Source: a virus. Taken from it: 55,732 bases of DNA. The stretch spans positions 1 through 55,732 of IMG/VR virus record IMGVR_UViG_3300025769_000012, one strand, 5' to 3'. The position numbers and the translations under genes are program-made. Under the pieces are notes generated by a model that ran no database searches, was not told the DNA's origin, and saw nothing but the letters and a program-made list of their open reading frames with translations. This document shows, one piece after another, positions 5,528-55,703 of this stretch (position 1 is the first letter of the stretch; every line of letters starts with the position of its first letter).

Positions 5528-5728
5528 TCAGCACCCCATAAAATCTGTGCCCTTAATGGCTGCACCGGCACCACGCATTTTCATCTTGCGAGGCGTATCA
5601 CTAGCCATAGGCGCTGGCGCAGACTTACCGTAAGGGATACGACCCTGACCTTTGATGTCCGCATACTCAACCGCCTTCGGCGGGTCTTTAGGCGCAGAGC
5701 CGTTTACTTTTACTGTACGATTTTTCAT
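5528..5728 (-). CDS. small basic protein, probably virion-associated
   Basis: The 66-residue protein is basic and Gly/Pro/Ala-rich, ending RKMKMRGAGAAIKGTDFMGC. The C-terminal Met-Arg-Gly-x-Gly-Ala-Ala-x-Lys-Gly-Thr pattern is of the same flavour as the Gly-rich repeat protein at 52655-52807. It has an AGGAG ribosome site and its start overlaps the stop of the upstream gene (ATGA). Function unknown. Confidence 0.68.
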   Translation of the reverse strand: MKNRTVKVNGSAPKDPPKAVEYADIKGQGRIPYGKSAPAPMASDTPRKMKMRGAGAAIKGTDFMGC

Positions 5729-6486
5729 GTTGGTCTCCTAAATGGACTGTTTAGAGATGCTTGCTGCACCACTTGCTGCGTATTAATGGGCGAGCCGTAA
5801 GCCGTAGGAACAGAAGCCTGTCCACTAGGCGGGCGGTAAAACGGCGACAAGTCGCCTACCATTCCAGCCGAATAAGACGTCGGGCTAGTGCCGTAAGTCC
5901 CAGACGAGGCTTGCTGCTGTTGCGTGTTGCCCGTGTCTTGGTTCTCCTGAACCAACGAGCCAATACCGCTGTCCATAGCAGTCGTGCCCGCGTTAATGTT
6001 GTCCATCGACGTTAAACTATCGGGGTTATAGTTTATACCCGTCCCGCCAGAATACTGAGAAACAAGTTGTTGCGCCGCATCCAGAGCTGCTTGATTGTTC
6101 GGAGCGTGTTGTTGCACAAACGCAAGGCGGTTTTGAGCGATTTCCGGATTGGATTCCATCAAAGAATTGTTATAGGCAATCTGGCTTGTGTTAAACTGAC
6201 GGTGTGCCGCCTTATATTGCGGATCACTAGCCACACCGCTCGCCCACGTATTTAGGTGCCAATCAGCAAAGTCATCACCCGAAGACATATTGTCAAAAGC
6301 GCCCAGACTATCCGCAGCCTCATACAAAGCCTTCTGCGTCATACGCTTAGAACCGTCGGCAAACGTCAACAAAACCATGTCGTTGCCTAACGCCTCGTTT
6401 CTGCCACTGCTCACATCCGTCATTTTGACAGCGCCGCCGTCCTCAAACCGCTGCGGATACGCATAGTTCAAGCTCTTTCCCATCAT
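5725..6486 (-). CDS. virion-region protein of unknown function, GG motif
   Basis: The 253-residue product is Asn/Gln/Ser-rich, low in hydrophobics, and begins with the short motif FEDGGAVKM (residues 14-22) that recurs in other late proteins here. The middle part is helical (residues about 75-160), and the C-terminal third is a low-complexity Gln/Ser/Thr/Pro tail. It is packed directly behind the portal (overlap ATGATG). It probably belongs to the virion or its assembly; no enzyme motif is visible. Confidence 0.65.
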   Translation of the reverse strand: MMGKSLNYAYPQRFEDGGAVKMTDVSSGRNEALGNDMVLLTFADGSKRMTQKALYEAADSLGAFDNMSSGDDFADWHLNTWASGVASDPQYKAAHRQFNTSQIAYNNSLMESNPEIAQNRLAFVQQHAPNNQAALDAAQQLVSQYSGGTGINYNPDSLTSMDNINAGTTAMDSGIGSLVQENQDTGNTQQQQASSGTYGTSPTSYSAGMVGDLSPFYRPPSGQASVPTAYGSPINTQQVVQQASLNSPFRRPT

Positions 6487-8964: not shown

Positions 8965-9852
8965 CTACTGATAATTTCGGTACTTCCTTGGCGAAAAGCC
9001 AAGTACCTGACGCGTCGTATCGAAATACCCCTGCTCATTGCGAGGGAAGTAAACATCCGGCCCCGTCTCCGGAGACACAAAGTTCCGTGGGGCGCGGGGC
9101 TGTTCCGGGGCAGGCGTCATCTGCGCCTCCGAAGAACGACCCATAATTACATCAAGTTGCCTGAATATCTCCGCGTCGACCATTTGTGTCAACTGTTGAG
9201 GCGTCGCGTTAATACCAGCCTTCATGAATAGCTGACGACCAACAGCGTTGTTCCGCTGATCCATCGCAACGTCTCTTGCGTTCTGACCACCCAACGGAAA
9301 CGGCGCAAAACGATCCAAAAACTCGTTGAACGTACCAGCCGTCTCCGCAGTCTCAGGACCATACTCCTTTGCCATTACCGCAGAACCGAGCATATGCGCA
9401 CGAGCATCCTCTAACTCAGGATACGTCGGCATGTCACGACGACCCTCGGGACGCGCCATCCGGATACTCTCAGGCTCAGAACCCGTAGGAATAACCATCT
9501 GACCCGTTTCCTGATCGATAACAGCCGGGTAGTTGTACTCATCAATGAGCTGCGCCATAAAGCTCGGGTCCGAACCATAAAGAGCCGCGGTCCGCGAACC
9601 GCCGACACGGGCACTCTCCCGGAGTCCCTCAGTCGGATCACCATCACCAAGAAGTTTGTCATACAATACAGTGCCAAAACCCGACTCTTCCGGGGCCCCT
9701 TGCGAAACTTCTTCAGGCATGTATTCTAAATAAGCTGGATCAGAACCGGGGGCCGTGGTCTGCAAATCAATAAGCGTAGGGTCTCCGCCGTCCTGCATAT
9801 AACGTACAGGATCGTGACCGGCTGCACCTAAATTAACCGCAGACTTGTACAT
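8965..9852 (-). CDS. virion-region protein of unknown function between TerL and portal
   Basis: The 295-residue product is hydrophilic, Pro/Gly/Glu-rich and carries the late-gene motif YMQDGGDP at residues 18-25. A central helical part (about 125-230) is followed by an extended C-terminus (RNFVSPETGPDVYFPRNEQ, split). It sits 17 bases after TerL and 19 before the portal start. Its motif links it to the group of late proteins discussed in the findings. No known domain is recognised. Confidence 0.68.
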   Translation of the reverse strand: MYKSAVNLGAAGHDPVRYMQDGGDPTLIDLQTTAPGSDPAYLEYMPEEVSQGAPEESGFGTVLYDKLLGDGDPTEGLRESARVGGSRTAALYGSDPSFMAQLIDEYNYPAVIDQETGQMVIPTGSEPESIRMARPEGRRDMPTYPELEDARAHMLGSAVMAKEYGPETAETAGTFNEFLDRFAPFPLGGQNARDVAMDQRNNAVGRQLFMKAGINATPQQLTQMVDAEIFRQLDVIMGRSSEAQMTPAPEQPRAPRNFVSPETGPDVYFPRNEQGYFDTTRQVLGFSPRKYRNYQ

Positions 9853-11333: not shown

Positions 11334-11370
11334 AGGGGCCCCTAGCTAACTTTTCATACGCAGTTTTTAA

Positions 11371-11386
11371 TGTTTCACGTGAAACA
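11371..11386. promoter_or_regulatory. parS-type ParB-binding palindrome 1
   Basis: The 16-base palindrome TGTTTCACGTGAAACA fits the well-known bacterial chromosomal parS consensus TGTTNCACGTGAAACA exactly. It lies 38 bases upstream of the TerL start. ParB clamps of the host would load here if present. No parA or parB gene is in the genome. Confidence 0.85.
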
Positions 11387-28397: not shown

Positions 28398-30010
28398 TCC
28401 TCTTGAGGCTCTCCATACGCGGCGTATTGGCGATAAAACTCGATACCACGAGCCTCTTCTTCGGTCTGTGGCGCTTGCTGCATGATGTTTGGGATCATCT
28501 GACGTGTCTGAGCGGGCTGTTCCGCGGGCCGTGTGCCGCCAAATACGCTTCCTAACCCGGACATCAGGTATTCGCTTTGAACCGGCGTAGGTGGCGTATA
28601 TCCGGGCGTACCAAGCCCCTCTGGACGCATCCTCGGTTTAGGTGAAGGGTCTTCTCCTTCGACACGGGTGTAAAACGCATTCATATCCGGCAGGATTTCT
28701 CCTGTATCCACACCGTGGATCATTGCAACATAGTTACGGGTTTCCTCGAAAGGTGGAACACCACCGTATTTCTGCACATTACCGGGGCCCGCGTTATACG
28801 CAGCGAGGGCCAAGGGCACTGTTTGGAAGGTGTTGAGTTGCTGGCGAAGGTAACGTGCGCCACCACGGGCGTTTTGGATCGGATCGTTCGGGTCCACGCC
28901 TAGTTCACGCGCCGTTCCGGGCATGAGCTGCATCAGACCGATAGCACCCTCCTCACTAACGGGGCCTTGGCGACCTTTGTTCTCGGTGTACATGACGCGT
29001 AGGTATAGCTCTGGGTCGACGCCCTCTTCCATGGCGATGTCGATAGGGTCAAACCCGTAGTCGTTAATCACCTTTTGGCGCATTGCAGTCAGGTCTTCAT
29101 CGGTTATGGCGGTGACGGCTCCGCCTTGTGCATAATTTCTGAATAGACCGGCCACGCCGCCTTCCTCATAGTTTCTAACTGCGGGTTCTTGTGTTTTTTC
29201 TTGCCATTCCAAAAAGTCTGCGAGTAACCCCGCCATTGAAGAGGACCATGGAAGCTCTCCGGTCAAACCCACTAAATAGTCCCCGGCAGAGGCACCGTAG
29301 TTTCCTCGATCCCATTCTGTTCGAGCATCGTCATAATAATTGTCGGGGTTTACTGCAAAATTTCTTACAATGTCGTGGAAGGGAAGTGTTCCACTATCCA
29401 ACAGCTCTTGTTGCGTCATTTCAGCCACGGGGTTTCCGCCATCTTCAAAACCCATGGCAGTCGATCCGAAACCCGACATGCCTGCTAAACTTACTTCTGG
29501 CGTTGATCCAAAAGTATCTCGACCAACCGTGTAAAACTGGCCCGGTGAAGTCATGACCGCTTGTGCCGTAGCAGCGGCGTTACCGCGCCGTGTTGCCCGA
29601 GCTTGTGCGGATTCGACAAATTCGTCGACGTCTTTTCCGCTAAAACCGGGGTCTGCCGGAGCAACGGGTGCCGAACCGCCCTCAAAAACGGGTGCTGTTC
29701 CGACCCATTCGCCGGGCGACGCCACGGAATTTGCCCACTCTTCATACGGTGTCGTGCGGTCAGTCTCGTTCCACGCAGCAATTGCCTCGTTGTAGGCGTT
29801 TGCGTTGTTTCTCCAGTTCTCCAAGTCGGTGTTGTACTGATTAACCTTGGCGTTATGGGCATCTACCAAGGTTTGGTAAGAGCCCGCCTCTGTTTTGTAC
29901 TTGTCGAGAGCCGTGTTGTAGAGGTTGATCCGGTTATCATAGTCTTCCATGATGTCCCGGTCATACTGGTAGTAACGGGCTTCCGGGGTGGCGTATCTAA
30001 GAATGCTCAT
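28358..30010 (-). CDS. virion protein with lytic transglycosylase (SLT) domain
   Basis: The 550-residue product has an N-terminal coiled coil (residues 15-70), Gly/Ala-rich central parts with motifs GFEDGGNPV and YEEGGVAGL ... YAQGGAV, and an SLT domain at about residues 315-430: YTENKGRQGP with the catalytic Glu, EEGAIGLMQLMPGTARELG, and LALAAYNAGPGNVQKYGG. It would open peptidoglycan during DNA entry. It is the last gene of late block 2, following the three other large virion proteins. Its end overlaps the plus-strand helicase by 40 bases. Confidence 0.86.
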   Translation of the reverse strand: MSILRYATPEARYYQYDRDIMEDYDNRINLYNTALDKYKTEAGSYQTLVDAHNAKVNQYNTDLENWRNNANAYNEAIAAWNETDRTTPYEEWANSVASPGEWVGTAPVFEGGSAPVAPADPGFSGKDVDEFVESAQARATRRGNAAATAQAVMTSPGQFYTVGRDTFGSTPEVSLAGMSGFGSTAMGFEDGGNPVAEMTQQELLDSGTLPFHDIVRNFAVNPDNYYDDARTEWDRGNYGASAGDYLVGLTGELPWSSSMAGLLADFLEWQEKTQEPAVRNYEEGGVAGLFRNYAQGGAVTAITDEDLTAMRQKVINDYGFDPIDIAMEEGVDPELYLRVMYTENKGRQGPVSEEGAIGLMQLMPGTARELGVDPNDPIQNARGGARYLRQQLNTFQTVPLALAAYNAGPGNVQKYGGVPPFEETRNYVAMIHGVDTGEILPDMNAFYTRVEGEDPSPKPRMRPEGLGTPGYTPPTPVQSEYLMSGLGSVFGGTRPAEQPAQTRQMIPNIMQQAPQTEEEARGIEFYRQYAAYGEPQEDQRNQSLASSPST

Positions 30011-34004: not shown

Positions 34005-36728
34005 TTAATTCCCCTGTCCAGTAGCTTGGTTCATGATTTCCTGCGCTCTTTCCAAATCTGCGGCATTGGCAGTATTTGAGAGAGTTAGGATTGGGCCAAG
34101 CAGACCTTCCAAGCGTTCGATTTCAAACAGTTTCTGGCTAAGAGTGCTATTAAGCGCACTGTCGATAGGCGTACCGCTTGCACGAAGCGTAAGAATGCGG
34201 GCTTTCTCGGTGCGCAGCTCTTCCGCCAAACGAGTAAGTTTGCGAGCTTCCGAAACAGGGTTGCGGAAGAACGAGCGTTCGTCTGGGAACAACTGAGCCG
34301 TGGTTTCCAGATCGGCGACCGCAAAGCGAGGCGATGCAGACAGCGCCGAACGACCAAATACGCGAACCATTTCGATGTACTGACGTGCATCCTGCGTATC
34401 GCGGAACATTTCCCCAAAATACTCTGGAGCAATCGTACCACCAAGCAGTCCGTCGACACCGGCATAAACCTTGGACCAGAAACCAGTACCCAACCGAGCC
34501 TGACGCAGCGCGTCACGGACGTTGTTTCGTGTTTCTTGGTTCAATGGATTGCCTTCGGCATCTGTCATTCCGCCGATAAGGTCATTTTCCATGGCATCCA
34601 AGGCTTCTTGCGCACCCGCGCTGACGCGAGCGTTGCGGTTAACCTCGTAAGCAATGGTGTTAGACACTTCAAAGCCATTTGACGGAACAGTGCGTTGTAC
34701 GCCATTTGCGTCCGTAAATGTGCGGCCACCGTCGTAGCTGGTGTAAACGCCACTTTCGAAGCCTTCGCCCGCTGGGACGTAGAAGCCACGAGGCGACACG
34801 TCTTCTGTACCAAGACGGAACATCGTTGCGGAACCCGGAGTTGCAGAGTTAAGGCGGTTAACATCCGCCACAACAGCCTGACCTTCCGGAGTTTTGATGT
34901 CCACAACACGCTGTTGAGGTTGACCGTCTGTACCCGGCATCGTAACGCGGAAGTAAGACGGTGTAACCGAGACGTCGCGGTCCAGAATATCCATGCTCTC
35001 GCCGGTACGCTCGTTGATACGAACGATTGTGACGCTGCCATCTTCGCCTTGAAGCGTTTCGAAGCGGTAGTCGGGATCGATACCAAGCAGAACCTGACGA
35101 TCTTCCAACTGCAAGCCTTCGAAGGCGTTGCGGTCCATACCAAACTTGCCGAAGTAATCGCGGTCCGTGAGGACAGGAAGACCCTGCAAGTATTGCTTCT
35201 GCGTTTCATCCAGACCGTTAAACTGCTCTTGCGTCATGCCAAAGCGGTTGAAGTAATCGCGGTCGCTGACTGGAGCGGTGTATGCCGTATAAGCATCCGC
35301 ACCATACTGAGAAGCAATTCCGTTAAGTTCGTTTGAACTCAAGTTTGGTGACGATCCTGCCGGATAAGTTCTGTTACCCAGAGTAACATCCATGTTCAGT
35401 GTTACCTGAGTGCGGTCTTGCGCACGAGACAGCAAGCTTTCTGGGCTGTACGTGCCCATGCGAACCGCGCCGCTATTCACCAAAGAGCTATAAAGAGCTG
35501 TTCCGGGGATCGCGGCCAACTGACTGCCGTCCGTCATCATGAAGTTTTCAGCACTTTGTGGGGTGCCCGAGGTCTTCGGCATGGCGCGAACGGTAACGTT
35601 TTCCATACCGTACTGTGCATAAAGCCCTTCTAACTGACCACGGGTCAAGGGCCGTTCACCGAGGTTTCTGGTAACGGGCTGGCCGTTTTCGTCCGTTTCG
35701 GTAACCGCTACGGAGTAAACATCACCAATGTCTTTATCTTGAGCGGCCAACGCTGCCGAGCGTTCTGCGCCATACAGGCTTTGTGCGCCTTGCAATGCCG
35801 CTAAGTCAAGCTGACGCTGTTCAGCTTTTTGGCCTTGTTTAAATTTGCCGAACTCACCAGCCCGCGCACCGATGTTGCCAAGAACCGGCGTAAATGCCTC
35901 CGCAAAGCGCGACACAGGGCTGACATTCCGCTCGCCCGGGGTGGCAAGCATCAGGCCGCCTTGCGCGATGTCAAAAAGCATCTGCGCTTGGGTAAGATTA
36001 CGCTGCTCTTCGAGGTCCACTGCGCGTTGCGCCGGATCGAAAAGCTGGCCGTAGAGGGCCCGCTGTTCGTTGAAGAGTTCTTGCTGACGGGCGTTAGGCA
36101 TGGAGACGCCGCCATCAGCCATGTACTGGACCGCGCCTCCTTGGTTAAAATTTACAGGAGCTGGGCCTCCTTGACCCGGCATTGGCGCTTCTTCCGCCAT
36201 GCTTACCGTCGACATAATGCCGCCAGCCATATCACCTTGTATTGGAGTATCCATTGCTTCGGGAGCCATGCTTCCGATGCCCTGATCTACCAATGCAACC
36301 TGCATAATCGGCTGAACCAGCGTCAGAACCGAGTCCGGCGTCTGTGCCGCATCTGCGTCACCAACTACTCCGGCCAGCTCCATGCGCCGATCTTGGAGAG
36401 GTGCCTGATCGCCGCGGATCGTGTTGATAATTTGCTCGTAATCTTCAGTTTCGGCTGCCGCGTCCAAGTTCCCGAAAGAACCGGCGGCTTGCTGAAGCAT
36501 TGATTCGAGGACCGCGGGGTCAATGCCTTGCTGCATGGCACCCATGGCGGCCTGATCCATTGGCATGTCCTGCGGGACAGGAAGAGCTGCTGCGGAAGGT
36601 GCCGGGGGCATTCCCATTCCACCTTGTGGAGCCGGAGGTGCCATCATCGGATCGCCTCCTGCCTGCATACGACGTACCTGTCCGCCATTGGCAAACATCT
36701 GTCGATCCATTACGCCTCTATTCATCAT
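34005..36728 (-). CDS. large virion protein with repeated GG motifs, 907 aa
   Basis: The N-terminus has tandem motifs (MFANGGQVRRMQAGGDPMMA) and a second pair (FNQGGAVQYMADGGVSMP) near residue 205, with a Met/Pro/Gly-rich and acidic stretch between. The rest is an extended, mixed alpha/beta protein with repeats DRDYFNRFGMTQEQFNGLDE and DRDYFGKFGMDRNAFEGLQ (about residues 480-540). A structural or ejection role is likely given neighbours on both sides. It overlaps the Gln-rich protein gene by 4 bases. Confidence 0.72.
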   Translation of the reverse strand: MMNRGVMDRQMFANGGQVRRMQAGGDPMMAPPAPQGGMGMPPAPSAAALPVPQDMPMDQAAMGAMQQGIDPAVLESMLQQAAGSFGNLDAAAETEDYEQIINTIRGDQAPLQDRRMELAGVVGDADAAQTPDSVLTLVQPIMQVALVDQGIGSMAPEAMDTPIQGDMAGGIMSTVSMAEEAPMPGQGGPAPVNFNQGGAVQYMADGGVSMPNARQQELFNEQRALYGQLFDPAQRAVDLEEQRNLTQAQMLFDIAQGGLMLATPGERNVSPVSRFAEAFTPVLGNIGARAGEFGKFKQGQKAEQRQLDLAALQGAQSLYGAERSAALAAQDKDIGDVYSVAVTETDENGQPVTRNLGERPLTRGQLEGLYAQYGMENVTVRAMPKTSGTPQSAENFMMTDGSQLAAIPGTALYSSLVNSGAVRMGTYSPESLLSRAQDRTQVTLNMDVTLGNRTYPAGSSPNLSSNELNGIASQYGADAYTAYTAPVSDRDYFNRFGMTQEQFNGLDETQKQYLQGLPVLTDRDYFGKFGMDRNAFEGLQLEDRQVLLGIDPDYRFETLQGEDGSVTIVRINERTGESMDILDRDVSVTPSYFRVTMPGTDGQPQQRVVDIKTPEGQAVVADVNRLNSATPGSATMFRLGTEDVSPRGFYVPAGEGFESGVYTSYDGGRTFTDANGVQRTVPSNGFEVSNTIAYEVNRNARVSAGAQEALDAMENDLIGGMTDAEGNPLNQETRNNVRDALRQARLGTGFWSKVYAGVDGLLGGTIAPEYFGEMFRDTQDARQYIEMVRVFGRSALSASPRFAVADLETTAQLFPDERSFFRNPVSEARKLTRLAEELRTEKARILTLRASGTPIDSALNSTLSQKLFEIERLEGLLGPILTLSNTANAADLERAQEIMNQATGQGN

Positions 36729-38941
36729 CCAAATAACCCCGCTTTAGCTGCGCCGCCTGCGGCTGACAGACCGGCTATCCCCAGACCCAAAATTTGCTGG
36801 GCGGGGGATACTGTTGGTGCAGTGGTGCCAGTAATACTTTGCTGAGACGACGGAGCGCCTTTGTAAATATCTGACAAGAACGCCACACGTTGATAAGGCT
36901 CGTACATTTGTTGCAATTGCGTCTGGCGCTGTGCTTCCAGAGTTGCTTGCTGTTGAGCCTGTTGCTGTTTGCCAAGGTCGAACAAGAAGCCCTGCTCCCG
37001 CTGACCCATTTGCTGTTGTAGTTCGCCAAGAGAAGCCTGACGTAGACCCAGAGTACCAAGAGCTTCGCCTTGTGCAAGACCGAGCTGGCCGTACTGGGTT
37101 CCAAGACCACCGAGGCCTTCGCCAAGGCGGCCCAAAAGTTCTTGGCCTTGAATTCCAAGAGCGCCAGCCGCTTGAGAGCCTTGTACACCAAGACCCGCCT
37201 GCGCCTGACCGAGTTGACCGGCTTGAAGACCAAGCTGACCTGCAAGCTGTTCTGCACTGATGCCCATCTGACCGGCTTGCGCAGCGATATTGGCTTGCGC
37301 TTGCTGACCCTGAAGGCCCAAAGCTCCGGCTTGACTGGATAGCTGACCTGCAAGCTGGGCTGCATTCATACCAGTGGTTGCTGCCAACTGTTGAATATTC
37401 ATGCCTGTTGAGGCCAAGGCTTGTGCGTTTGCCGCAGCCATCTGCTCGCCAGACAATCCAAGTTGACCGGCGACCTGTGCGGCTTGAATACCTTGCTGAC
37501 CGATTTGACCCGCACCAGCTTGCGCCAATTGTTCTGCGGACATACCCAATTGGGCTCCGGACAGGCCAAGCTGGCCCGACGCTTGCTGTGCAGACAAGCC
37601 AAGCTGCCCGCCTTGTAGCGCCTGTTGGGCGGCAAGTTGTTCTGCTGTTAGACCCAAAGAACCCGCAGCTTGCGCCGCTTGCGTTCCAGCTTGCGCACCT
37701 TGCGCACCCAGAGCCCCGGTAAGTTGTGCAGCCTGTTGGCTCCGACCTTGCTGGGCCTCATAAGCTTGTTGAGCGCGTTGCGCGGCGCTTTCAAAGCCCG
37801 CCTGACGCATCTGAGCGGCAGTCCGACCTTGTTGTTCCAGTACGTTGCGGCCTAATTCGGCTTCTGCGACGGCTTGGCGTGATCCGCCGAATGCGCCTGC
37901 ACCAACTGCTTGCGCACCAAGTTGCTGTTGCTGAATTTGACCCGCACGAGCGACGTCTGCAAGTGCTTGCTGTACCGCAGCGTCTTCGTAACCGCTCATA
38001 AACGGGCTAATTTGGCTCGGATCAAAGGCTCCAGTGGTGCCTGCCAGACCGGCAATTCCGCTAATTGCGGAACCCGTCCCTAATGCGCCAGCTTGTTGTA
38101 GAGCCGTCGCTGCGTCGGCAGTAATACCGCGAGCGCCGGTTACAGCTTGTTGGCTTCCTGCCAAAGCATCTTGATATGCACCAATTCCGCCCACCCCCGC
38201 GGTTTGAGCGGCTTGTTGACCAGCAAGCGCCTGAAGGCGCGCTTGGTCCGTAGCTTGAAGAGTGTTTTGTTGTGCAAGTTGTTGCGCAGTTAACGCGCCT
38301 TGACCCATTGCACCGTAAGTTCGAGCGCCTGCGGTGGCCGTTTCAAGCTGGCCCTCCAGAGCCTGCCCAACACCGCGTCCACCAGTAGCTGCGCCCGCCG
38401 CAACGTTTGCAGCGTCTGATGCGGCTCCTTCCATCCCCATTCGTGCCGCACCAATACCCGCGGGAATAGCGTCATAGGCCGCTAACTGGTCGGCCATCGA
38501 CTGACTTGCGATGGTCCGTGCGCCTTGGGCCGCGGTCCCCATAGCGCCAGTCGCGGTTTCTACCGCACCGGCACCATAATCTATGGCACCGCCAATACCG
38601 GTTTGAGCCGCTTGAACTTGACCCGGAATATTTGCTGCGCCAGTGCGCATAAGACCGGCAGCTTCCGTTTGAAACGGGACGGCGTCCGCCATTACACCGC
38701 CAAGAGCGGTTTGTGCGTCGCCAAGCGTGTAGCCTGCTTCTGTCAGATACGGCTGATAACCGCCAATACCCTGTGCTGCGAGTTCCGTGGCGCTAACTTG
38801 GAGGGCCGACATGTCCGCCACAAGCTGCGGCGGAATTGTGATGCCTTGGTCTGCGAGTGCTTTTGCGGATTGTAGAAGCCCAATTTTATAGGCTTCAATA
38901 TCCGGGGCTTCGCGGACTATCTGTTCTGTTACTTCAGCCAT
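36725..38941 (-). CDS. Gln/Ala/Gly-rich repeat virion protein, 738 aa
   Basis: Residues about 100-640 form a long low-complexity helix-prone array of about 11-residue units such as AAQVAGQLGLSGEQMA and AGQMGISAEQLAGQ, with hydrophobic residues in regular spacing. Such units form extended coiled or amphipathic structures, as in pilot or tape-like proteins. The last part is less regular (QREQGFLFDLGKQQQAQQ). It touches its neighbours by overlaps. I infer an internal virion or DNA-entry protein; there is no enzyme motif. Confidence 0.72.
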   Translation of the reverse strand: MAEVTEQIVREAPDIEAYKIGLLQSAKALADQGITIPPQLVADMSALQVSATELAAQGIGGYQPYLTEAGYTLGDAQTALGGVMADAVPFQTEAAGLMRTGAANIPGQVQAAQTGIGGAIDYGAGAVETATGAMGTAAQGARTIASQSMADQLAAYDAIPAGIGAARMGMEGAASDAANVAAGAATGGRGVGQALEGQLETATAGARTYGAMGQGALTAQQLAQQNTLQATDQARLQALAGQQAAQTAGVGGIGAYQDALAGSQQAVTGARGITADAATALQQAGALGTGSAISGIAGLAGTTGAFDPSQISPFMSGYEDAAVQQALADVARAGQIQQQQLGAQAVGAGAFGGSRQAVAEAELGRNVLEQQGRTAAQMRQAGFESAAQRAQQAYEAQQGRSQQAAQLTGALGAQGAQAGTQAAQAAGSLGLTAEQLAAQQALQGGQLGLSAQQASGQLGLSGAQLGMSAEQLAQAGAGQIGQQGIQAAQVAGQLGLSGEQMAAANAQALASTGMNIQQLAATTGMNAAQLAGQLSSQAGALGLQGQQAQANIAAQAGQMGISAEQLAGQLGLQAGQLGQAQAGLGVQGSQAAGALGIQGQELLGRLGEGLGGLGTQYGQLGLAQGEALGTLGLRQASLGELQQQMGQREQGFLFDLGKQQQAQQQATLEAQRQTQLQQMYEPYQRVAFLSDIYKGAPSSQQSITGTTAPTVSPAQQILGLGIAGLSAAGGAAKAGLFG

Positions 38942-40869
38942 TACGCTGTCGCCCTCCCGCGGCTCTCAAGATTACGCATGACCGAATACATGTTCTTGAT
39001 GCCGTTATTTAGGTTTCCGTTCCCCATACCGCGGACCGCGTCTGTTGTCATGACAAACTCGCCGGGCATGAGCATTGCGCGGACACTGTCCTGCCCCGGA
39101 ATACCCTCGTCGGGCATGATGCCGCCGTTGCGGCGCGGGAAGATCGCTCCACCGTCAGCCGCAGTCACATAAGGACGGGCAAACGGGCCACCGGGGGTGC
39201 TACCCTGAAGGTAGTTACCACCTTGGTTGTAAGTGTACTGAGTGGGGACCGAATACGTGCTGTATTCCGGTGCCCGGATGGTCAAATCGTTAATTGCGCC
39301 AACCGAAGAACTTGCTCGTGGAACGTAAGTGCCTGTTTCGGGGTCCAAAACTTGGTCGCCCAAGTCGGCAACAAGGTATTTACCCGGATCGGCGGCAACG
39401 AGGTCTTCGCCAGTAATAATATTGCCGTCTGCATCGCGCTGGGCGATGTCTAAAGGCTCGGCAGGTATTGGGCTAAACGCGCCAGAAGCCGCTGCGACAC
39501 CTGTACCGAGGGCCGCGAGCGGCCCATAAGTACGCAAGAAGCCCGGAGCTGCGCTTGCAACTGCCGATTCCGCTGCTTTAGTCGCAGTAGAGGCTGCCAC
39601 GCTTGGCGTCATGCCGGGCAACGTCATAGCGTTGTTGTAAGCGTCCGTATATGCCGCATTGCTAAGTTGCGTCGTTTGAGCGGCATTTGGACCTCCCGGG
39701 AAGAACGCATCCTTCATGCCTTGAGTAAAGCTGATGTCGTCGCCCGGAGTAACCGCCCCTTTGATGCTTTCCATAAAGCTAGGAGGCTCGTAGGCCGCGA
39801 CTTGCGGGCCAATCACTGGATTGACCGTCGCACCGGCAGGAATTTGACCGCCTGCTGGGATAGTCATACCGTTGCCGTTCGCCAAAGTAACGTCAACCGC
39901 GGAACCGGTGTTGTTCAGGCGAGCAATCGAGGTATCCGCCGTGCGAAGAGCTTCAGTTGCGTTAGTTACGTTCGGGTCTGCCGAGGAAACCGCCTCGGTG
40001 CGTACTGCACTGGTGTCGCCTGCGGCTTCGGATGCGCCTTGCGCTGTTTGTGCCGGAGCTTGCGCTGCGCCCGTCGGGACATACTCGCTGAAGAACCCTT
40101 GTTTGCCAGCGTTGGCCGCTTGAGCCGCTTCGCCGCCAAATACATTTGAAAGCGAAGTTTGTGCGCCAGAAACGGTTTGTCCAAAACGACCAATCGGGTC
40201 AGCTAGACCCGTCTTGATGTTTTCCATAAACCCGCCGCTTCCTGTGAAGCCTTGGAAGACTGCGCCCGTTGCGCCTGCAACCAAAGCAGACTTGAGGGCG
40301 TCTTTGATCGATCCGCCTTGTATCAGCGTTCCGATACCAGAACCAAGCGCCGCACCGTAGATAGGTCCGAGAGGCGTGAACGACAAAGCAATCGGCAAGA
40401 TGACGGGAGCCACCTTCTTGACCACTTTGACGACCGACTTAACAACGTTCTTAACGGCTTTTACTATGCCTTTAAAAAGCTTTTTAAGGAAAAACTCCGG
40501 TGCGCCTGTTTCAGGGTTCAAGCTGTTAGCTTCAGAACCCACAACGTAGCGTTCTGGGTCTTCGACACCCATTTCCCGCAAACGTTGAAAAATACTTTCT
40601 TTAAGCTCTTCGTCTTGCTCGATTAAAGCAAGCGGGATGACCAATTCCCCAGTTTGAAGGTGAGCAACAACGTCGTCGCCCTCGCGGCCCATAGCCGCCA
40701 TCTTCTTGGTCAGAGCAGGAAACTGTGCGATGCCCTCATCGCCGTATTCTTCGGTGCCGTCATCGTCTTCGCCGTAAACCGCTTCAATCTCATCATCGTC
40801 CATGATAAGATCGCCAATACCACCGTCGGGAACGGTTAACTCATCAATTTTTTGCGCTTCTACTGCCAT
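38941..40869 (-). CDS. virion protein with cationic amphipathic membrane segment, 642 aa
   Basis: The product has an acidic N-terminus, then a very basic amphipathic segment at residues 126-152 (FFLKKLFKGIVKAVKNVVKS, first 20) followed by a hydrophobic part (APVILPIALSFTPLGPIYGA) and Gly-rich stretch. The middle is Ala/Thr/Asn-rich. The C-terminus has ADGGAIFPRRNGGIMPDEG and MLMPGEFVMTTDAVRGMG. The segment resembles pore-forming peptides, suggesting a role in membrane passage of DNA. It is coupled to genes on both sides. Confidence 0.75.
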   Translation of the reverse strand: MAVEAQKIDELTVPDGGIGDLIMDDDEIEAVYGEDDDGTEEYGDEGIAQFPALTKKMAAMGREGDDVVAHLQTGELVIPLALIEQDEELKESIFQRLREMGVEDPERYVVGSEANSLNPETGAPEFFLKKLFKGIVKAVKNVVKSVVKVVKKVAPVILPIALSFTPLGPIYGAALGSGIGTLIQGGSIKDALKSALVAGATGAVFQGFTGSGGFMENIKTGLADPIGRFGQTVSGAQTSLSNVFGGEAAQAANAGKQGFFSEYVPTGAAQAPAQTAQGASEAAGDTSAVRTEAVSSADPNVTNATEALRTADTSIARLNNTGSAVDVTLANGNGMTIPAGGQIPAGATVNPVIGPQVAAYEPPSFMESIKGAVTPGDDISFTQGMKDAFFPGGPNAAQTTQLSNAAYTDAYNNAMTLPGMTPSVAASTATKAAESAVASAAPGFLRTYGPLAALGTGVAAASGAFSPIPAEPLDIAQRDADGNIITGEDLVAADPGKYLVADLGDQVLDPETGTYVPRASSSVGAINDLTIRAPEYSTYSVPTQYTYNQGGNYLQGSTPGGPFARPYVTAADGGAIFPRRNGGIMPDEGIPGQDSVRAMLMPGEFVMTTDAVRGMGNGNLNNGIKNMYSVMRNLESRGRATA

Positions 40870-41111: not shown

Positions 41112-42209
41112 TCACAACTGGAGCTGGGATACATTTACCAGCACCGAGGGTGCCGACGGCGCGAAGGCTGATGCCGTTAATGCGTCCAACAAAACGTTTG
41201 TATCGTTCGCCGCCCAATACAGCTCAACGTAATCGGTGGCGGCAAGAGAGATGGTGTAGTTCAACGATATGGGCAAATATCCGTTGTTGGCGTCTATTGT
41301 CACAGCACGGGTTGAGTCGGCAACATCCGTGCCGTTCTTTCGAAGCCAGAAAAATATGTTTTTCGCACTGGCGCTCGTCGAAGTTAACTGGATTGTGGCG
41401 TCCACCTGATAATAACCAGCCTCGACAACGTTTAACCGCGACCCGCTGCTCAAGGTAACCCCGTTAGTGACGAGTGTGTCCGTCAGGGTAATGGCGGTTG
41501 CCGTGTTGATAGCCCCCAGCGTCTGATCGACCGCAGCGTCAAAACTGCCGTAGTCCAAACCAATTGGAACGGTAGGTCGCACCATGATTTCGCCGTCTGT
41601 GGCGTCTACTTTAAGCACCGCAGCAATAACAATCACACCATTTGGTGCCGTTGGGCGCACATTAGTAAGCAAACCGGCTGTAGTTGGCGAGACATACAAA
41701 ATGTCGCCCACACTCCACGTCTCTGCCCCGGGGCCCGTGGTGTCTAAACCCCGCACCTTGCCGTATAACGTCACCGGGCCAATATCTTGATCTGGCATGT
41801 CGTGCGTGGCTACACCCACAAAATACAGCTCGTTTGCCGTGTTGTTGGCAATATAGGGCGCAACCTTGATTTCGCCGTTTACCCCAACAAAACCCACGAC
41901 TTCGCCATTATTGATTTGGCTTCCGGTGTCGTTTTTGACCCGCATGTAGGTCTCAAAACCAACTTGCTGGACAACGCCGTCGCCCATCGTAATGTCGACG
42001 GTCTCTTCGTTGAGGTTCCACGTCATCTGGCCTTGGTCCACGTTCCCCGTGGCTTCCGTCAACGTGATTTCAGTGGCGCGTAGCGGCCCGGGGTTGATGG
42101 ATTGCTGAAGGTAAACAGAAAACGAGCGAACAACCTCGGTCAAGTACCGCTGGTCGTATTGAGCTGGAGGAAGTGGAAAGTAAGGAACCGGTTGACCGCG
42201 GGATGCCAT
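41112..42209 (-). CDS. tail/neck fibre-like protein with jelly-roll C-terminus
   Basis: The 365-residue protein starts with a short conserved-looking arm (YFPLPPAQYDQRYLTEVVRS), then a beta-rich domain (TYMRVKNDTGSQINNGEVVG, VGDILYVSPTTAG) like those of phage tail appendages, and ends with a jelly-roll region (GSRLNVVEAGYYQVDATIQL, NIFFWLRKNGTDVADST) of the C1q/TNF-like type. It would be a surface fibre or collar protein for host contact. It directly follows the gp10-like protein gene, sharing one base. Confidence 0.75.
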   Translation of the reverse strand: MASRGQPVPYFPLPPAQYDQRYLTEVVRSFSVYLQQSINPGPLRATEITLTEATGNVDQGQMTWNLNEETVDITMGDGVVQQVGFETYMRVKNDTGSQINNGEVVGFVGVNGEIKVAPYIANNTANELYFVGVATHDMPDQDIGPVTLYGKVRGLDTTGPGAETWSVGDILYVSPTTAGLLTNVRPTAPNGVIVIAAVLKVDATDGEIMVRPTVPIGLDYGSFDAAVDQTLGAINTATAITLTDTLVTNGVTLSSGSRLNVVEAGYYQVDATIQLTSTSASAKNIFFWLRKNGTDVADSTRAVTIDANNGYLPISLNYTISLAATDYVELYWAANDTNVLLDALTASAFAPSAPSVLVNVSQLQL

Positions 42210-44299
42210 CAGCGCCTCCCATCGGGTCGCATGTCGTAGCGAAGGCTACCCAAGCGCCACGCAACTCCTGTGTCGTCGGACTGCACCTGAATGCTGAACT
42301 GACGACCACGAAGTCTCAAGTTAATTTGTTCCGTGTCGTCTCCAACCTGACTGGTCACCGTTTTCAGGTAATTACCGTTGCTGTAATTGCGTACACGCGT
42401 CGTAATATCAAGCAAAGGCACCGGGGCGCTTGAGTTTCTAAACCCAACATCGGGGATCAAACGGCTCAAGAACGTAAATTGCTGACCGTCGCCCATGTCC
42501 ATCGGGCTGGAGCTGACATATGCCGTAATAGCTCCCGCCGGGGACACGCTGCCGTCGTCAAATCCAAACTCGTGGTTGTACAAGAAATTGTCTGGCGATG
42601 CCGCAATCGGATATTGCTCAATGCCGCGGTCAATCCAGCAAGTACGAGGCAAGTTACCGTAATACCAGACCTGCTCTAGCGTGTTGTAGACCACATAACG
42701 GTCGTTTTCAGAGCTGCTCGAAGACGGGTAGAACCACCAAATCTCATTGTTTTCGGAGTTTACCGCTGCGGTGACCTTGTCAAACTGACCGACGTTGATG
42801 TCGTCAAAGACGTAATCCCGTACCGAACACGGAATTTTCTGAACCGCACCGTTGTACATGTAAAACTCAGAGATACCCATCCAGAATATCTGATCCTCGA
42901 CAGGAACCGCGGTCAGCGGTCCGGCAATCGTGGTGTTTTCAGAAATAAGCTGGATACCAAAGGTAAACGGAGGGCCAAGGTACTGCATTGCGTACATCGA
43001 GCTGTCCGTAAAGACGATAACCTGTTGGCGCGTCTCTACCGCAGTGACAATCTCGGACCCCGAGCCGAGGCGCAAGTCCCCCGCCGTAGTCAGCGCGGTG
43101 CTTTCCCACTCGGTCAGGCTCTCTTGGTCAGAAAACCGGATCAAAAGCGGGTCTTGTACGCCCGGATCGTTCTGTGGATCACACCCAAAAGCAATTACGT
43201 GGCGGTCACGGTCAGAGACCAAAACCTGCTTGGCAATTGTCGGTGTGTAATTTGCTCCCGCCAGCGACGACAGCTCAACACCGCGTGTGCTAGTGCCGTT
43301 GGTTTTGTCCCAATAGTAAAGACCACCGTCGCGGACGTTAAACAGCAAGTCCTCACCAAAGTTGTCGTGGCTCCAAATACGAAGCTTAGAACCCTCCGCC
43401 AAAAGGTTGGCAGCCGATCCCCACGCGCCGCGGGACCAAGTCCCGGCACCCCAGCCAGAACCCACAACCGTGGTGTCCAGACCGGTGTTGATTTGATATG
43501 CGCCTACTACTGCCGCGCCGCCGTTGCCGCTATCACCGGTTGTAGCAAAAACAGGGGTTTCGTCTAAACCGCCAGAAACGGTAATCGACGGGATCGTCGA
43601 TACAATACGCGCCGTGATGTAATAGGTGTCGTTGTCTTCAACGTGAACCACCTGATACTCTTGATTCAGAATATCTGCGGTAATTTCGTCGCCCAGAGAA
43701 ACCGCGCCAGAAAACGTCACGAAGTCGTCGTCATTACAGCCATGACCCGTGTCATTCACAGTGATCGTTGCGCAAGTAACCGCATCACCGCTGGTGTGCG
43801 CGGTTGCCGTCGTATCAAACTGGGCACGAACGCAGTTTTGCAAGTCGTTGCCCGAAACGTTCGAATACAGAATAATTTCGGAGTTGATCTTGATGTAGCC
43901 GTTTGACGGGAAGCCTGTCGTAGAAGACAGGGTAATCGTCACGTCGTCATCAGTAACGTTGCCGTTTAACGTGTTAGCCGCCGCGGAAAACGTGACGTCT
44001 CCCGCAGCGGTCGTAACGCGAATAGGTGTGATGTCTGAATAGCCGCCGCCTTCGTTAATGTAGTATTTTAAGTGCGTTCCCACACCCAAATACCGCTCAC
44101 CCGAAAGCGCCACCCACGGATGGAGAGCGCGGCAGGTGCCTAAAAAAGTGGTGGATGACAGCTTTTGCCATCCACCAATTTTTTCAGGAAAGCCGTAGCG
44201 AAACCGGACCTTGTCACAGTCGTACCAACCACCTTCGTTGGTGTACGAGGTTACCTCTCGGTTAATCCCGGGTCTGAACTGTAACTTGGTAAGAGGCAT
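42209..44299 (-). CDS. P22 gp10-like tail completion/DNA-stabilisation protein
   Basis: The 696-residue beta-rich protein opens with LQFRPGINREVTSYTNEGGW and has propeller-like repeats (FGYPSNG..., RDRHVIAFGCDPQND, EQVWYYGNLPRTC). I associate this start and length with tail hub proteins of P22 gp10 type in marine short-tailed phages. It would close the portal after packaging and hold the tail needle or fibres. It lies between the fibre-like gene and two small genes. Call rests on recalled family resemblance and position. Confidence 0.68.
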   Translation of the reverse strand: MPLTKLQFRPGINREVTSYTNEGGWYDCDKVRFRYGFPEKIGGWQKLSSTTFLGTCRALHPWVALSGERYLGVGTHLKYYINEGGGYSDITPIRVTTAAGDVTFSAAANTLNGNVTDDDVTITLSSTTGFPSNGYIKINSEIILYSNVSGNDLQNCVRAQFDTTATAHTSGDAVTCATITVNDTGHGCNDDDFVTFSGAVSLGDEITADILNQEYQVVHVEDNDTYYITARIVSTIPSITVSGGLDETPVFATTGDSGNGGAAVVGAYQINTGLDTTVVGSGWGAGTWSRGAWGSAANLLAEGSKLRIWSHDNFGEDLLFNVRDGGLYYWDKTNGTSTRGVELSSLAGANYTPTIAKQVLVSDRDRHVIAFGCDPQNDPGVQDPLLIRFSDQESLTEWESTALTTAGDLRLGSGSEIVTAVETRQQVIVFTDSSMYAMQYLGPPFTFGIQLISENTTIAGPLTAVPVEDQIFWMGISEFYMYNGAVQKIPCSVRDYVFDDINVGQFDKVTAAVNSENNEIWWFYPSSSSSENDRYVVYNTLEQVWYYGNLPRTCWIDRGIEQYPIAASPDNFLYNHEFGFDDGSVSPAGAITAYVSSSPMDMGDGQQFTFLSRLIPDVGFRNSSAPVPLLDITTRVRNYSNGNYLKTVTSQVGDDTEQINLRLRGRQFSIQVQSDDTGVAWRLGSLRYDMRPDGRR

Positions 44300-49235: not shown

Positions 49236-50129
49236 TTACGCTGCTACCCGCGTCCAATTAGCGTTCTGGTTAGGTGCTTCCTCCGACCATGCTGGTTCTT
49301 GACTTGGGTCAACGTCACTATAGCTCGGATTTTGATCCGGGACAATCTTTCCGTAAACCAGTACCTGTCCAACTTGTCCGGCAGCACTTACGCCTGTTAC
49401 ATTTACGATAGCGTCTGCATTTGCAATAACACTACCAACTATTCCTATCCCCGCGACACCGCCAACATTTACGTTCTGGTCGGTGGTTACCGCAACAGAC
49501 CCTACGTTACCTATCGCCTCAATACCCACTACAGGTACATTGGCTTCCCCATCGACAGACGCCTGTCCAACTTGCCCAGTTGCCGCGATACCGGTAGGGT
49601 ACACATTCGCGACAGCAACAACAATAACAGACCCAACATTACCGGTGGCAGCTATGCCCGTAACCGGTACATTTGCCGCCGCGTCGATTTCAACCGACCC
49701 AACTGCGCCTGTTCCAGCACTTCCCGTAACGTTGACGTTTGCATCTGCGGTGACCGTAACAGAGCCGACAGCTCCTGTCCCAGCCAATCCGGTGGGGTAG
49801 ACATTGGCGTCAGCGTTTATGCTGACGGAACCGACTTGGCCAGTACCGGATACCCCAGTAACGTCTACATTGGCCTCGCCGATGATGCTGACTTCGCCTA
49901 TTTGGCCGGTGCCAGCAACACCCGTAACCTCAACATTGGCTTCCGCAACTACCGTTACGCTGCCAACATTACCCGTCGCTGCAATCCCAGTAACTGGCGC
50001 ATTTGCTTCCGCAATGACCGTTACCGAGCCTACAGAACCCGTGACAAACGGAAAACCGCTCTGGCTCCACGGGCCTTCGCCCCAACCAGAGCGGCCCCAG
50101 CCGCCGATTGGAACGATAACATCAGCCAT
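49236..50129 (-). CDS. tail/virion protein with 22-residue beta-solenoid repeats
   Basis: The 297-residue product starts with a Gly/Trp-rich arm (PIGGWGRSGWGEGPWSQSGF), then has about 11 units of 22 residues with the pattern GxVGSVxVxAxANVxVTGxA, and a short tail (AWSEEAPNQNANWTRVAA). Regular Val/Ala/Gly spacing points to a beta-solenoid. It sits between the fibre and a small structural gene and may be an accessory fibre or fibre anchor. Confidence 0.75.
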   Translation of the reverse strand: MADVIVPIGGWGRSGWGEGPWSQSGFPFVTGSVGSVTVIAEANAPVTGIAATGNVGSVTVVAEANVEVTGVAGTGQIGEVSIIGEANVDVTGVSGTGQVGSVSINADANVYPTGLAGTGAVGSVTVTADANVNVTGSAGTGAVGSVEIDAAANVPVTGIAATGNVGSVIVVAVANVYPTGIAATGQVGQASVDGEANVPVVGIEAIGNVGSVAVTTDQNVNVGGVAGIGIVGSVIANADAIVNVTGVSAAGQVGQVLVYGKIVPDQNPSYSDVDPSQEPAWSEEAPNQNANWTRVAA

Positions 50130-51828: not shown

Positions 51829-52497
51829 CTACCCCGCCCTATAATATTCGTACCTTGGAACAACATTGAAGGATGACCGATCACGGTCCTCCGTCGCTGC
51901 TCGCTCAAACTCCTCTTCATACACAGCTTTGAGCATCTGAACACGGTTCGGTGCCCGCTTCAAAGCAATGTAATAGGCCAGCCCCGCCGCGAGGCAGGGA
52001 TAGAACCGAAACGGCATGTCCATGGTATTGGTGAAATCGTCCGCGTCGTCCACTCGGGTCAACGCATCGTAGATCACAACGTCCGAAGCATCGTCAGGAA
52101 CCGGCCAAATTTTTAAGTTTGGCGTCACTTGACGGTCCAAAAAGAACTGGTTTGGACGGCCCTGAGAGGTTTTGTTCGGAATGTTAAGGTAGTCATCACG
52201 GCTGAGACGCTCCATAGAGTAATCGGTGCCGCTGCGTCGACAAATAACCGACAAAACGTCGATTACATCGCTGCCTAAGTCATAATCCCCGTCGCCTACA
52301 ACCAAGGTGACCGTGCGTTGCTTAATAGTCCACTGGTTTAATCCGCGGTTTGCCCAGTCCGCAAGCAACAAGTTGAGCGAACGCTTGGCTGATTTCAGGT
52401 CGTAACCTGTACGAACCTCAAGGCCGCACCGCTCAAATGCCTCTTCGACATATTCAGCGACGTCTAGCTCGAAGTCTTTGCTGCCTGACGTGGTCAT
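51829..52497 (-). CDS. P22 gp4-like tail accessory/connector protein
   Basis: The 222-residue product starts with helices (DFELDVAEYVEEAFERCGLE, VRTGYDLKSAKRSLNLLLAD, WANRGLNQW) followed by a beta region (TVTLVVGDGDYDLGSDVIDV) and a helical end (YYIALKRAPNRVQMLKAVYE). This pattern resembles the P22 tail accessory factor gp4, which docks to the portal after packaging. It overlaps the 53-aa gene by ATGA. Function inferred from that resemblance and the adaptor next to it. Confidence 0.7.
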   Translation of the reverse strand: MTTSGSKDFELDVAEYVEEAFERCGLEVRTGYDLKSAKRSLNLLLADWANRGLNQWTIKQRTVTLVVGDGDYDLGSDVIDVLSVICRRSGTDYSMERLSRDDYLNIPNKTSQGRPNQFFLDRQVTPNLKIWPVPDDASDVVIYDALTRVDDADDFTNTMDMPFRFYPCLAAGLAYYIALKRAPNRVQMLKAVYEEEFERAATEDRDRSSFNVVPRYEYYRAG

Positions 52498-52655
52498 GAC
52501 CGTTTCCTACTCTTCTTGGCGGTTTTGGCCGCTTTTTTAAACGCCTTGTCGGTAGGCGCACCTTTGCTGCCCGGCTTACGCATTTTTTCACCAGACCCGG
52601 CAGCTATCCGCTTCCGTTTGGCTTGAATGTTTGCATATAAACCGCGCTTTGCCAT
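52494..52655 (-). CDS. small very basic protein, 53 aa
   Basis: ATG at 52655 sits in TAATG with the stop of the upstream gene, and the stop TGA overlaps the next start (ATGA). The 53-residue product (MAKRGLYANIQAKRKRIAAG at the start, KKAAKTAKKSRKRS at the end) has about one third Lys/Arg. It could coat DNA or act in assembly. The tight coupling on both sides and a typical late-gene arrangement support it. Confidence 0.72.
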   Translation of the reverse strand: MAKRGLYANIQAKRKRIAAGSGEKMRKPGSKGAPTDKAFKKAAKTAKKSRKRS

Positions 52656-52807
52656 TATGCGTTCCTTACCGCGCAGCTCTTTTTGCCGCCAGATTTACGG
52701 CTAGACGTGCGTACTGCACCGCCGCCCTCCATCTTTTTAACCATACCGCCGCCGCGCATTTTCTTAACCATGCCGCCGCCACGCATCTTTTTAGGTTTCA
52801 TCGCCAT
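52655..52807 (-). CDS. Gly-rich tandem-motif protein, 50 aa
   Basis: ATG at 52807 with AGGAGG 7 bases upstream gives 50 residues. Three tandem copies of K-M-[RE]-G-G-G-[MA]-V (MRGGGMVKKMRGGGMVKKME and GGGAVRT) are followed by a basic tail. The motif matches the GG motif scattered in large virion proteins. The start at 52807 overlaps the upstream gene by 17 bases. Likely a virion-associated or scaffold-binding peptide. Confidence 0.75.
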   Translation of the reverse strand: MAMKPKKMRGGGMVKKMRGGGMVKKMEGGGAVRTSSRKSGGKKSCAVRNA

Positions 52808-53384: not shown

Positions 53385-53567
53385 CTACTCCAGAAACTTG
53401 TGTACTAGAGGTGTTACGACTATTAGAATGCCAAGCCCCCAGATTTTGTAATCAAGACCGTCCAAAGACTTTTTCTGTTCCTTCAGCTTTTCTTCAATGC
53501 GTTGATAGCGAAGATTGCACTCCGCTTCATGCTTTTCTAGCTTCGATAAAACGTCTTCTACGCGCAT
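53385..53567 (-). CDS. small coiled-coil protein with C-terminal TM, XhlA-like
   Basis: The ATG at 53567 after GGTGAGG gives 60 residues: a coiled coil (VLSKLEKHEAECNLRYQRIE, EKLKEQKKSLDG) and then a C-terminal membrane helix (LDYKIWGLGILIVVTPLVHK). This is the layout of XhlA-type haemolysin/holin-associated proteins. It starts 8 bases after the DUF6321-like stop. A role in lysis or membrane anchoring is inferred. Confidence 0.68.
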   Translation of the reverse strand: MRVEDVLSKLEKHEAECNLRYQRIEEKLKEQKKSLDGLDYKIWGLGILIVVTPLVHKFLE

Positions 53568-53574
53568 TTCTTCC

Positions 53575-53859
53575 TCACCAAGCTTTGCAGGACCAGTAAC
53601 GGGCACTGAACTTGTCTTTGGCGGTGCCACACGAATGACGCGCTCTAAAGTTTTTTCTACGTCCCGGCTGATCTTTTTTAATTGCCATGTTCGGATCGCC
53701 GAAGCGAACCAATTTAACTTCCGACCCTTTTTTAGCGAGGACCGCACTTTTCTTTGATTTCCCGGGTGTACGCTTTGGTTTGTTATATCCTGCAAAAGTT
53801 TCCCCCCGGTACTTTAATCGGCCTGATGGCATACGCTCAACGTCTTTTGTAGAAGCCAT
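53575..53859 (-). CDS. DUF6321-like basic protein, 94 aa
   Basis: The 94-residue product is very basic with the patterns GETFAGYNKPKRTPGKSKKS, VKLVRFGDPNMAIKKDQPGR and RRKNFRARHSCGTAKDKFSA with RYW at the end, which I associate with DUF6321, a small phage family. It probably binds nucleic acid or a capsid surface. It lies between two structural small genes. Family name is from memory and should be checked. Confidence 0.72.
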   Translation of the reverse strand: MASTKDVERMPSGRLKYRGETFAGYNKPKRTPGKSKKSAVLAKKGSEVKLVRFGDPNMAIKKDQPGRRKNFRARHSCGTAKDKFSARYWSCKAW

Positions 53860-54794: not shown

Positions 54795-55703
54795 TTACGC
54801 TGCGCCGGGAGTACCGAATACACAGCGCCAGTCAGAAACGCCGAAGCTGTAACGCTCACGCGCTTTGAAGCGCATGTTGCCGGTGTCAAAGTCCCCTTCC
54901 ATTGCCGTTTTGATTGGCGAACGGTTGAAGTATTTGAAGCCGTTAGGAGCGTCAGTCTTAATGAAGAACGCATCGGTGTCCGTCAGGAAGTGGTTAACCA
55001 CTGCACCTTCAGGAAGCATACCCATGGTCTTCATTGCGTTCAGATCGTTGTCCGCAGTGCCAGAGCGCAAGTTCGAGTTGATAACTCGTTCTGCGATGAA
55101 CTGAAGCTCTTTCGGAATGATGAGCTTCATGCCGCGTACAGCAATCTTCAGACCGCGTTCGTCAGTCAGACCCGCAATGTCGATTAGCATTTGCTCAAGC
55201 GAAGTTTCGTTGAGGTCAGCCGCAGTAGACAGCAAGTTACGCTGGTTACCAGACAAAGAGGGGTGAGCCGCCGAACAAAGCGCCGCGCCATCACCAACAG
55301 GGCTACCAGTGCTGAACGCGTTGTTCAGGATAGAAGCAGCCTTGATTTGCTTGGTCTGCGCCATAGAGCGAGCCAAAGCTTTAGTGTAGCGAGATGCGAG
55401 ACGATCATAAAGGTTATCTTCGATAGCCTCTTCAGTGATCGAGAACGCAAGCGCGATGGTTTCATGAGTGTAACGAGCAGTGTATGTCTCTTGTGCGTCG
55501 TCGAAACTGATGGCACCGCCTTCAGATTTCGTTGGCGCAGTCGAAAAACCACCGAGCATAACTTCCTCTTCAAAGGCACGGTCAGATGACTCCTCCTCAA
55601 AGACTTCAGAATGCTCATTCTCGTAACGGTTGTATTCGAGCCCGAACAAGGCATTAAGGCCGGGTTCCAGCTCTTTCGCTAGTTGTGCGCGAGAGATAGC
55701 CAT
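54795..55703 (-). CDS. major capsid protein
   Basis: The 302-residue protein starts MAISRAQLAKELEPGLNALF, followed by an acidic arm with RAFEEEVMLGGF, the core entry YTARYTHETIALAFSITEEA, YTKALARSMAQTKQIKAASI with LNNAFS, and a shell domain with LEQMLIDIAGLTDERGLKIA and KELQFIAERVINSNL. These lines match major capsid proteins I know from marine phages of HK97 fold. A strong ribosome site AGGAGG, its own terminator and the upstream decoration, scaffold and chaperone genes fit. Its residues 8-21 recur in the AlpA-like protein. Confidence 0.92.
   Translation of the reverse strand: MAISRAQLAKELEPGLNALFGLEYNRYENEHSEVFEEESSDRAFEEEVMLGGFSTAPTKSEGGAISFDDAQETYTARYTHETIALAFSITEEAIEDNLYDRLASRYTKALARSMAQTKQIKAASILNNAFSTGSPVGDGAALCSAAHPSLSGNQRNLLSTAADLNETSLEQMLIDIAGLTDERGLKIAVRGMKLIIPKELQFIAERVINSNLRSGTADNDLNAMKTMGMLPEGAVVNHFLTDTDAFFIKTDAPNGFKYFNRSPIKTAMEGDFDTGNMRFKARERYSFGVSDWRCVFGTPGAA

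Follow-up and report, generated by a model that had tools for sequence, protein, structure and literature searches.

The small open reading frame at 52655-52807 raises the question of whether the short GG-containing heptamer that it repeats in tandem, and that recurs in other late proteins of the same marine phage, is a real linear motif and, if so, what it does. The window analysed here is the whole of an IMG/VR virus record (55,732 bases), and its portal is 44-50% identical to the portals of pelagiphages HTVC023P and HTVC027P, phage DSL-LC04 and Roseobacter phage CRP-901. A sequence-only reading of the window had proposed three options for the motif, namely procapsid loading, binding to scaffold or portal, or a processing site. 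The features and the motif copies concerned are listed in Table 1.

Table 1. Late-gene features of the window and positions of the GG motif copies
Feature	Position	Strand	Remark
TerL	9870-11333		
Portal	6483-8945		
GroES	2150-2644		
M15-type endolysin and holin			Among late genes
Capsid protein	54795-55703		
SU10-type adaptor	51829-52497		PF24175
Virion structural protein	42209-44299		
SLT transglycosylase protein	28358-30010		
Acidic coiled-coil, scaffold-like protein	1280-2140		Usual protease/scaffold place
FEDGGAV	6427..6447	-	Residues 14-20 of ORF 5725-6486, gene after portal
MQDGGDP	9778..9798	-	Residues 19-25 of ORF 8965-9852, TerL-portal slot
FEDGGNP	29429..29449	-	In SLT-transglycosylase ejection-type protein 28358-30010
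YEEGGVA	29150..29170	-	In 28358-30010
YAQGGAV	29114..29134	-	In 28358-30010, just ahead of SLT domain
FANGGQV	36675..36695	-	ORF 34005-36728, N-terminal; F and GG unchanged across 39 relatives
MQAGGDP	36648..36668	-	ORF 34005-36728; exactly 9 residues past FANGGQV
FNQGGAV	36129..36149	-	ORF 34005-36728; conservation F 97%, GG 97%, V 92%
MADGGVS	36102..36122	-	ORF 34005-36728; 9 residues past FNQGGAV
C-terminal module of ORF 38941-40869	39040..39162	-	GGAIFPRRNGGIMPDEGIPGQDSVRAMLMPGEFV; two GG at 9-residue spacing ahead of a GEFV segment
50-aa basic repeat protein	52655..52807	-	Three tandem 9-residue repeats KKM[RE]GGG[MA]V; from translation
MRGGGMV, copy 1 in 50-aa ORF	52766..52786	-	
MRGGGMV, copy 2 in 50-aa ORF	52739..52759	-	
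MEGGGAV, copy 3 in 50-aa ORF	52712..52732	-	

The minus-strand translation of 52655-52807 is MAMKPKKMRGGGMVKKMRGGGMVKKMEGGGAVRTSSRKSGGKKSCAVRNA; the plus-strand reading of the same interval was set aside, as it is not the ORF concerned. The protein had been described as carrying KMRGGGMV in three tandem copies, and three KMxGGGxV repeats are indeed present, but the third is KMEGGGAV. Its gene falls in the interval that separates the capsid-protein region from the SU10-type adaptor gene, and this placement is a constant of the family, with an adaptor homologue directly downstream in 80 of the 80 loci checked, in some of them after one small intervening basic gene. Family members have about two to five repeats. 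Candidates were found in viral contigs in 422 of 600 cases, and one of 593 candidates was in a bacterial genome, on a contig that is itself phage-like; the family is phage-borne and phage-specific. A tblastn search of phage isolates with the repeat protein returned no match even at an E-value of 10, probably as a result of low-complexity filtering.

Like the 50-aa protein, the products of the neighbouring ORFs 52494-52655 and 53575-53859 are strongly basic. The first of these neighbours (minus strand, 53 aa, MAKRGLYANIQAKRKRIAAGSGEKMRKPGSKGAPT...) has its first 35 residues highly identical across many marine phage isolates (84 records), and of 80 loci only 15 have it beside the repeat protein. 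The ORFs 53575-53859 and 53385-53795, both on the minus strand, overlap in different frames and have homologues in 46 and 49 of 80 related loci, respectively; 53575-53859 encodes a Cys-containing basic protein (KNFRARHSCGTAKDKFSARYWSCKAW) that resembles HTVC023P gp43. A separate repeat architecture is found at 49236-50129 (minus strand), a 297-aa protein made of repeats of about 20 residues, GSVTVxAxANVxVTGxAxTG.

All of the motif copies that the sequence-only reading listed in other ORFs are present there, and the carriers are unrelated as it stated, with no pairwise match better than E = 0.07 among six window proteins. Some copies are near the N-terminus, at residues 12-25, and others are internal (188-293, 194-203). 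In the 34005-36728 family, with 39 relatives, the two best-kept copies have F conserved at 97-100%, both G at 97-100% and V at 72-92%, whereas their x columns are at 62-69%; the consensus is therefore Phi-x-x-G-G-x-V, where Phi is F, Y or M. The residue at -1, previously given as D, N or Q, is free: most large proteins have an acidic or amide residue there, and the small ones have R, K or G. Copies exactly 9 residues apart are found in the repeat protein (period 9), in the 34005 family (MFANGGQVRRMQAGG and NFNQGGAVQYMADGG), in a 1524-aa protein (LMADGGAVKHFATGG) and in an SLT relative (GMRDGGIVQNFQEGG), among others. Leaving the small family aside, 25 distinct strings of this kind came from larger proteins, and the reversed motif gave no pair at spacing 9. 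ORF 8965-9852 (minus strand) encodes 295 aa with a weak DUF6973 domain, and in this family most relatives have another short motif, VNLGAGGF, in the N-terminal part ahead of the GG motif.

The motif is enriched in late proteins over early proteins and over shuffled sequences. The late proteins without the 50-aa ORF have seven GG sites with F, Y or M at -3 and V or P at +2, against a mean of 1.05 and a maximum of 6 in a null with GG fixed (0 of 20,000 nulls reach 7), and none of the 17 GG of the early proteins is such a site. With the strict form [FYM]x[DENQ]GGx[VP], the late proteins have six copies, compared with a shuffle mean of 0.22 (maximum 3 in 300 shuffles), no copy of the reversed motif in the late proteins and none of the strict motif in the early ones. 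Because the pattern was picked after viewing the window, the relatives are the independent and real test. Per 10,000 residues, the strict motif occurs in them 3.5-3.7 times and the reversed motif 0-0.08 times, and in unrelated contigs the forward motif occurs 0.12 times. The counts are 50 forward and 0 reversed in the portal loci of relatives, 12 and 0 when each protein cluster of the portal loci is counted through a single representative (window included), and 96 and 2 in the loci of the 38941 protein. An origin by chance or composition is thus ruled out by the reversed-motif and fixed-GG nulls.

A single heptamer is not itself diagnostic, as the exact string FEDGGAV occurs in 118 IMG/VR stretches, only slightly more than the 97 of the reversed VAGGDEF. 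A second motif copy accompanies it in 32 of 71 in-frame FEDGGAV carriers and in 2 of 58 controls, with redundancy among the relatives; in the positional analysis, collapsing similar contexts merges the motif itself and hides the signal. Pelagiphages HTVC023P and HTVC027P, of the same portal and capsid family, have 0 and 1 strict copies, respectively, so this head type can do without the motif.

In the relatives, the same gene slots are filled by proteins of mixed ancestry that have the motif in common. The TerL-portal slot contains a 1268-aa protein with five copies in L046, a 727-aa protein with four copies in L080, a PcfJ-domain protein with SMADGGLV and FAEGGEV in DSL-LC04, and a GP88-domain protein with FYAEGGGV in L495; the PcfJ, GP88 and DUF6973 domains are each single in their slot protein. 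In the capsid-adaptor slot, other phages have unrelated basic proteins with GG motifs, including a 75-aa protein in DSL-LC04 (MMKDGGAV and KKMMGGGMM), the C-terminus of a 308-aa protein in Pag-Yong1 (GYAKGGAV and RYASGGMI), a 449-aa protein with eight copies in L495, and HTVC023P gp43 (GFKRGGDV). The motif is also found in the N-terminal tail of the portal in some relatives (L192, L208 and L234), which were called portal by their common LMPxGGPVR context, without a profile search.

Several further proteins of other phages have features of their own. L187 encodes a scaffold-like acidic protein (10481-11380) with HVRNYFEDGGAVP, and L263 a marine phage protein (1949-3865) with a different short motif, GGRVGFADGPDDPSKRKFMK. 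The 951-aa slot protein of L061 (2610-5465) has, by eye, a GNAT-like segment, an RHELEH metalloprotease-like motif and a DUF6973-like end, and Pfam returned nothing for it at an E-value of 0.01. The slot proteins of L080 (943-3126) and L210 (11190-14552) contain a module whose final strands look like those of an outer-membrane barrel (GVNIGYTIPF, NAGVRYTKRF), with EDGG directly after it.

All of the carriers with a guessable role are late proteins of the head interior, the ejection apparatus or the neck, and the SLT transglycosylase, the DNA-transfer neighbours and the TerL-portal slot point to the virion interior. The residues kept fixed suit a peptide ligand in an extended state. Taking together these roles, the ligand-like residues, the siting in linkers and tails and the mixed ancestry of the slot carriers, the simplest reading is that the heptamer serves to dock or sort the cargo and ejection proteins of the head interior, a reading that is put here at somewhat short of an even chance. 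In these short-tailed phages, Phi-x-x-G-G-x-V would then be a short docking motif within flexible termini and linkers that collects cargo and ejection proteins within the head, close to the portal vertex. It would act by binding, probably during head assembly, and its partner would be a virion component such as the portal, the scaffold, the capsid interior or a motif on another protein; the scaffold or the portal, which the sequence-only reading had named, is a possible partner. Of the three options raised by that reading, docking or loading fits best, and its premise of a real linear motif confined to late proteins stands.

The charge of the heptamers differs with the place of the gene, being positive in 25 and negative in 4 copies of the capsid-adaptor slot and positive in 31 and negative in 91 elsewhere. 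This contrast suggests hetero-pairing of heptamers, although it may simply mirror the overall basicity of the small proteins. Because slot copies are mostly positive and those of large proteins mostly negative, the tiny repeat protein is proposed to be a multivalent member of the docking network. A bolder form of the proposal would make the motif an address code across distant short-tailed phages, where the multivalent, mostly basic repeat protein encoded beside the adaptor gene pairs with mostly acidic heptamers on ejection and cargo proteins, keeping these at the portal vertex up to the time of injection, and where any protein gaining the heptamer would become cargo; this form is speculative and unlikely.

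The motif seems undescribed so far, no description having been found in the literature searched (open-access only, which is weak evidence). The capsid targeting sequence of T4 (IPI-IPIII, Alt) lies at the N-terminus, exceeds the window motif in length and is cleaved off by the gp21 protease. It is likewise a short signal that places cargo in the prohead for later injection, but the window motif is also internal and multi-copy, and no protease was found in the head cluster. Encapsulin cargo-loading peptides are short and conserved, lie in flexible tails or linkers, sometimes several of them, and bring cargo to an HK97-fold shell; their sequence differs from that of the window motif, and here the capsid protein is only a candidate partner. 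Another parallel is crAss001 gp45, a cargo protein shown inside the virion, where it touches the portal wing (PMC10172136). This virion-interior ejection protein (PDB 7qog) is encoded next to the stabilization-protein gene and has several F-x-x-GG sites; motif-like sites are NIFDTGGQS, NAFAEGGG and SMFAYGGDT, with similar sites kept in orthologues, and the bare motifs are outside the resolved density. Homology of the window domains to its portal-bound domain (425-552) was not found by profile or sequence comparison (hhalign probability 0.8% and 0.1%; BLASTP E 2.9), and the crAss001 precedent is therefore one of resemblance only. Polyvalent proteins, as presented in the passages of Iyer et al. 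2017 (PMC5512222) that were searched, are multi-domain, probably injected and encoded near the portal. The slot proteins of L046, L061 and L210 look like them and have several motif copies; many carriers here are, in contrast, not multi-domain, and the motif does not appear in those passages.

An alternative to docking, itself unlikely, is that the motifs are structural stickers, self-associating through the aromatic or Met residue and GG in a multivalent manner and condensing cargo without a dedicated receptor. The many copies, the tandem repeats and the positive and negative versions in different proteins would all suit such stickers, as would the presence of the motif in phages whose portal and capsid sequences differ widely; the fixed V at +2 and the exact 9-residue spacing, however, speak for a defined binding geometry.

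A processing site, the third option of the sequence-only reading and the main rival of docking, would mean that a protease cuts after GG as the head matures, shortening proteins at the N-terminus and dividing multi-domain cargo. Adenovirus protease is known to cut at MxGG-x and African swine fever virus protease at GG-x, and the MRGG-G of the repeat protein is like (M/I/L)xGG-x; the frequent location of motifs near the N-terminus or between domains would agree with this. However, the aromatic residue of the window motif is spaced differently from those sites, the strong V at +2 and the aromatic at -3 are odd for a GG cutter, and the 9-mers from a cut 50-aa repeat protein would make little sense. 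Neither a prohead protease nor a GG-cognate cysteine protease was detected by Pfam or PHROGs among the scanned window ORFs, where a very divergent one might escape; no protease domain is next to the head genes, and 1280-2140 is acidic and coiled-coil. Furthermore, residues 425-552 of gp45 are modelled in the crAss001 virion as one folded segment or domain (PMC10172136), and sequence inspection places TFINEGGSHE inside this stretch, so that at least this GG is uncut in crAss001. The lack of a head protease and a model that is unbroken across INEGG make processing less likely, and it is regarded as quite unlikely.

ADGGAIF and RNGGIMP of ORF 38941-40869 are a special case. These open a longer module, GG...DSVRAMLMPGEFV (GG...DSVxAMLxPGEFV), conserved in all relatives, and the C-terminus of this protein matches tape-measure PHROGs 5448, 6090, 934 and 37649 (45-49 of 49 relatives), a match that concerns this copy of the motif only. 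Since they belong to a tape-measure-matching module, the setting of these two copies is known in part, whereas the bare copies elsewhere are mostly without the GEFV part. The bare motif could be imagined as the broken-off first strand of a GEFV mini-domain that inserts into such modules in other proteins, which is a doubtful and rather improbable origin. The motif does stand directly before D-V-x-x-x-L-x-x-GE-x-V in 38941-40869, and in other phages FEDGGAV is directly ahead of a GEFV-type module (L185, L198 and L207); GG pairs 9 apart also occur within the module. Against this, most bare copies are not close to any such module, and no confident fold was obtained, as the structure models of both ends of 38941-40869 are of low confidence (pLDDT 55-57) and a fold search with the first of them gave no match.

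It is very unlikely that the motif is an inert flexible linker or a recombination seam kept by module exchange alone: copies do lie between swapped modules, as in L080 and L210, but Phi and V are conserved against drifting neighbouring x positions, copies near N-termini have no preceding module, and the motif makes up most of the 50-aa protein. The least probable reading is protamine-like DNA condensation by the repeat protein with GG as incidental spacers, which the basicity of the small protein and its two neighbours would allow and which leaves the acidic copies in large proteins unexplained.

In podovirus-like phages, head packing and the choice of what is injected are known for few models (T4, P22). 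If the seven-residue rule is true, packaged effectors would be recognisable from sequence alone in marine and freshwater phages, where most of the proteins so marked are now annotated as hypothetical.
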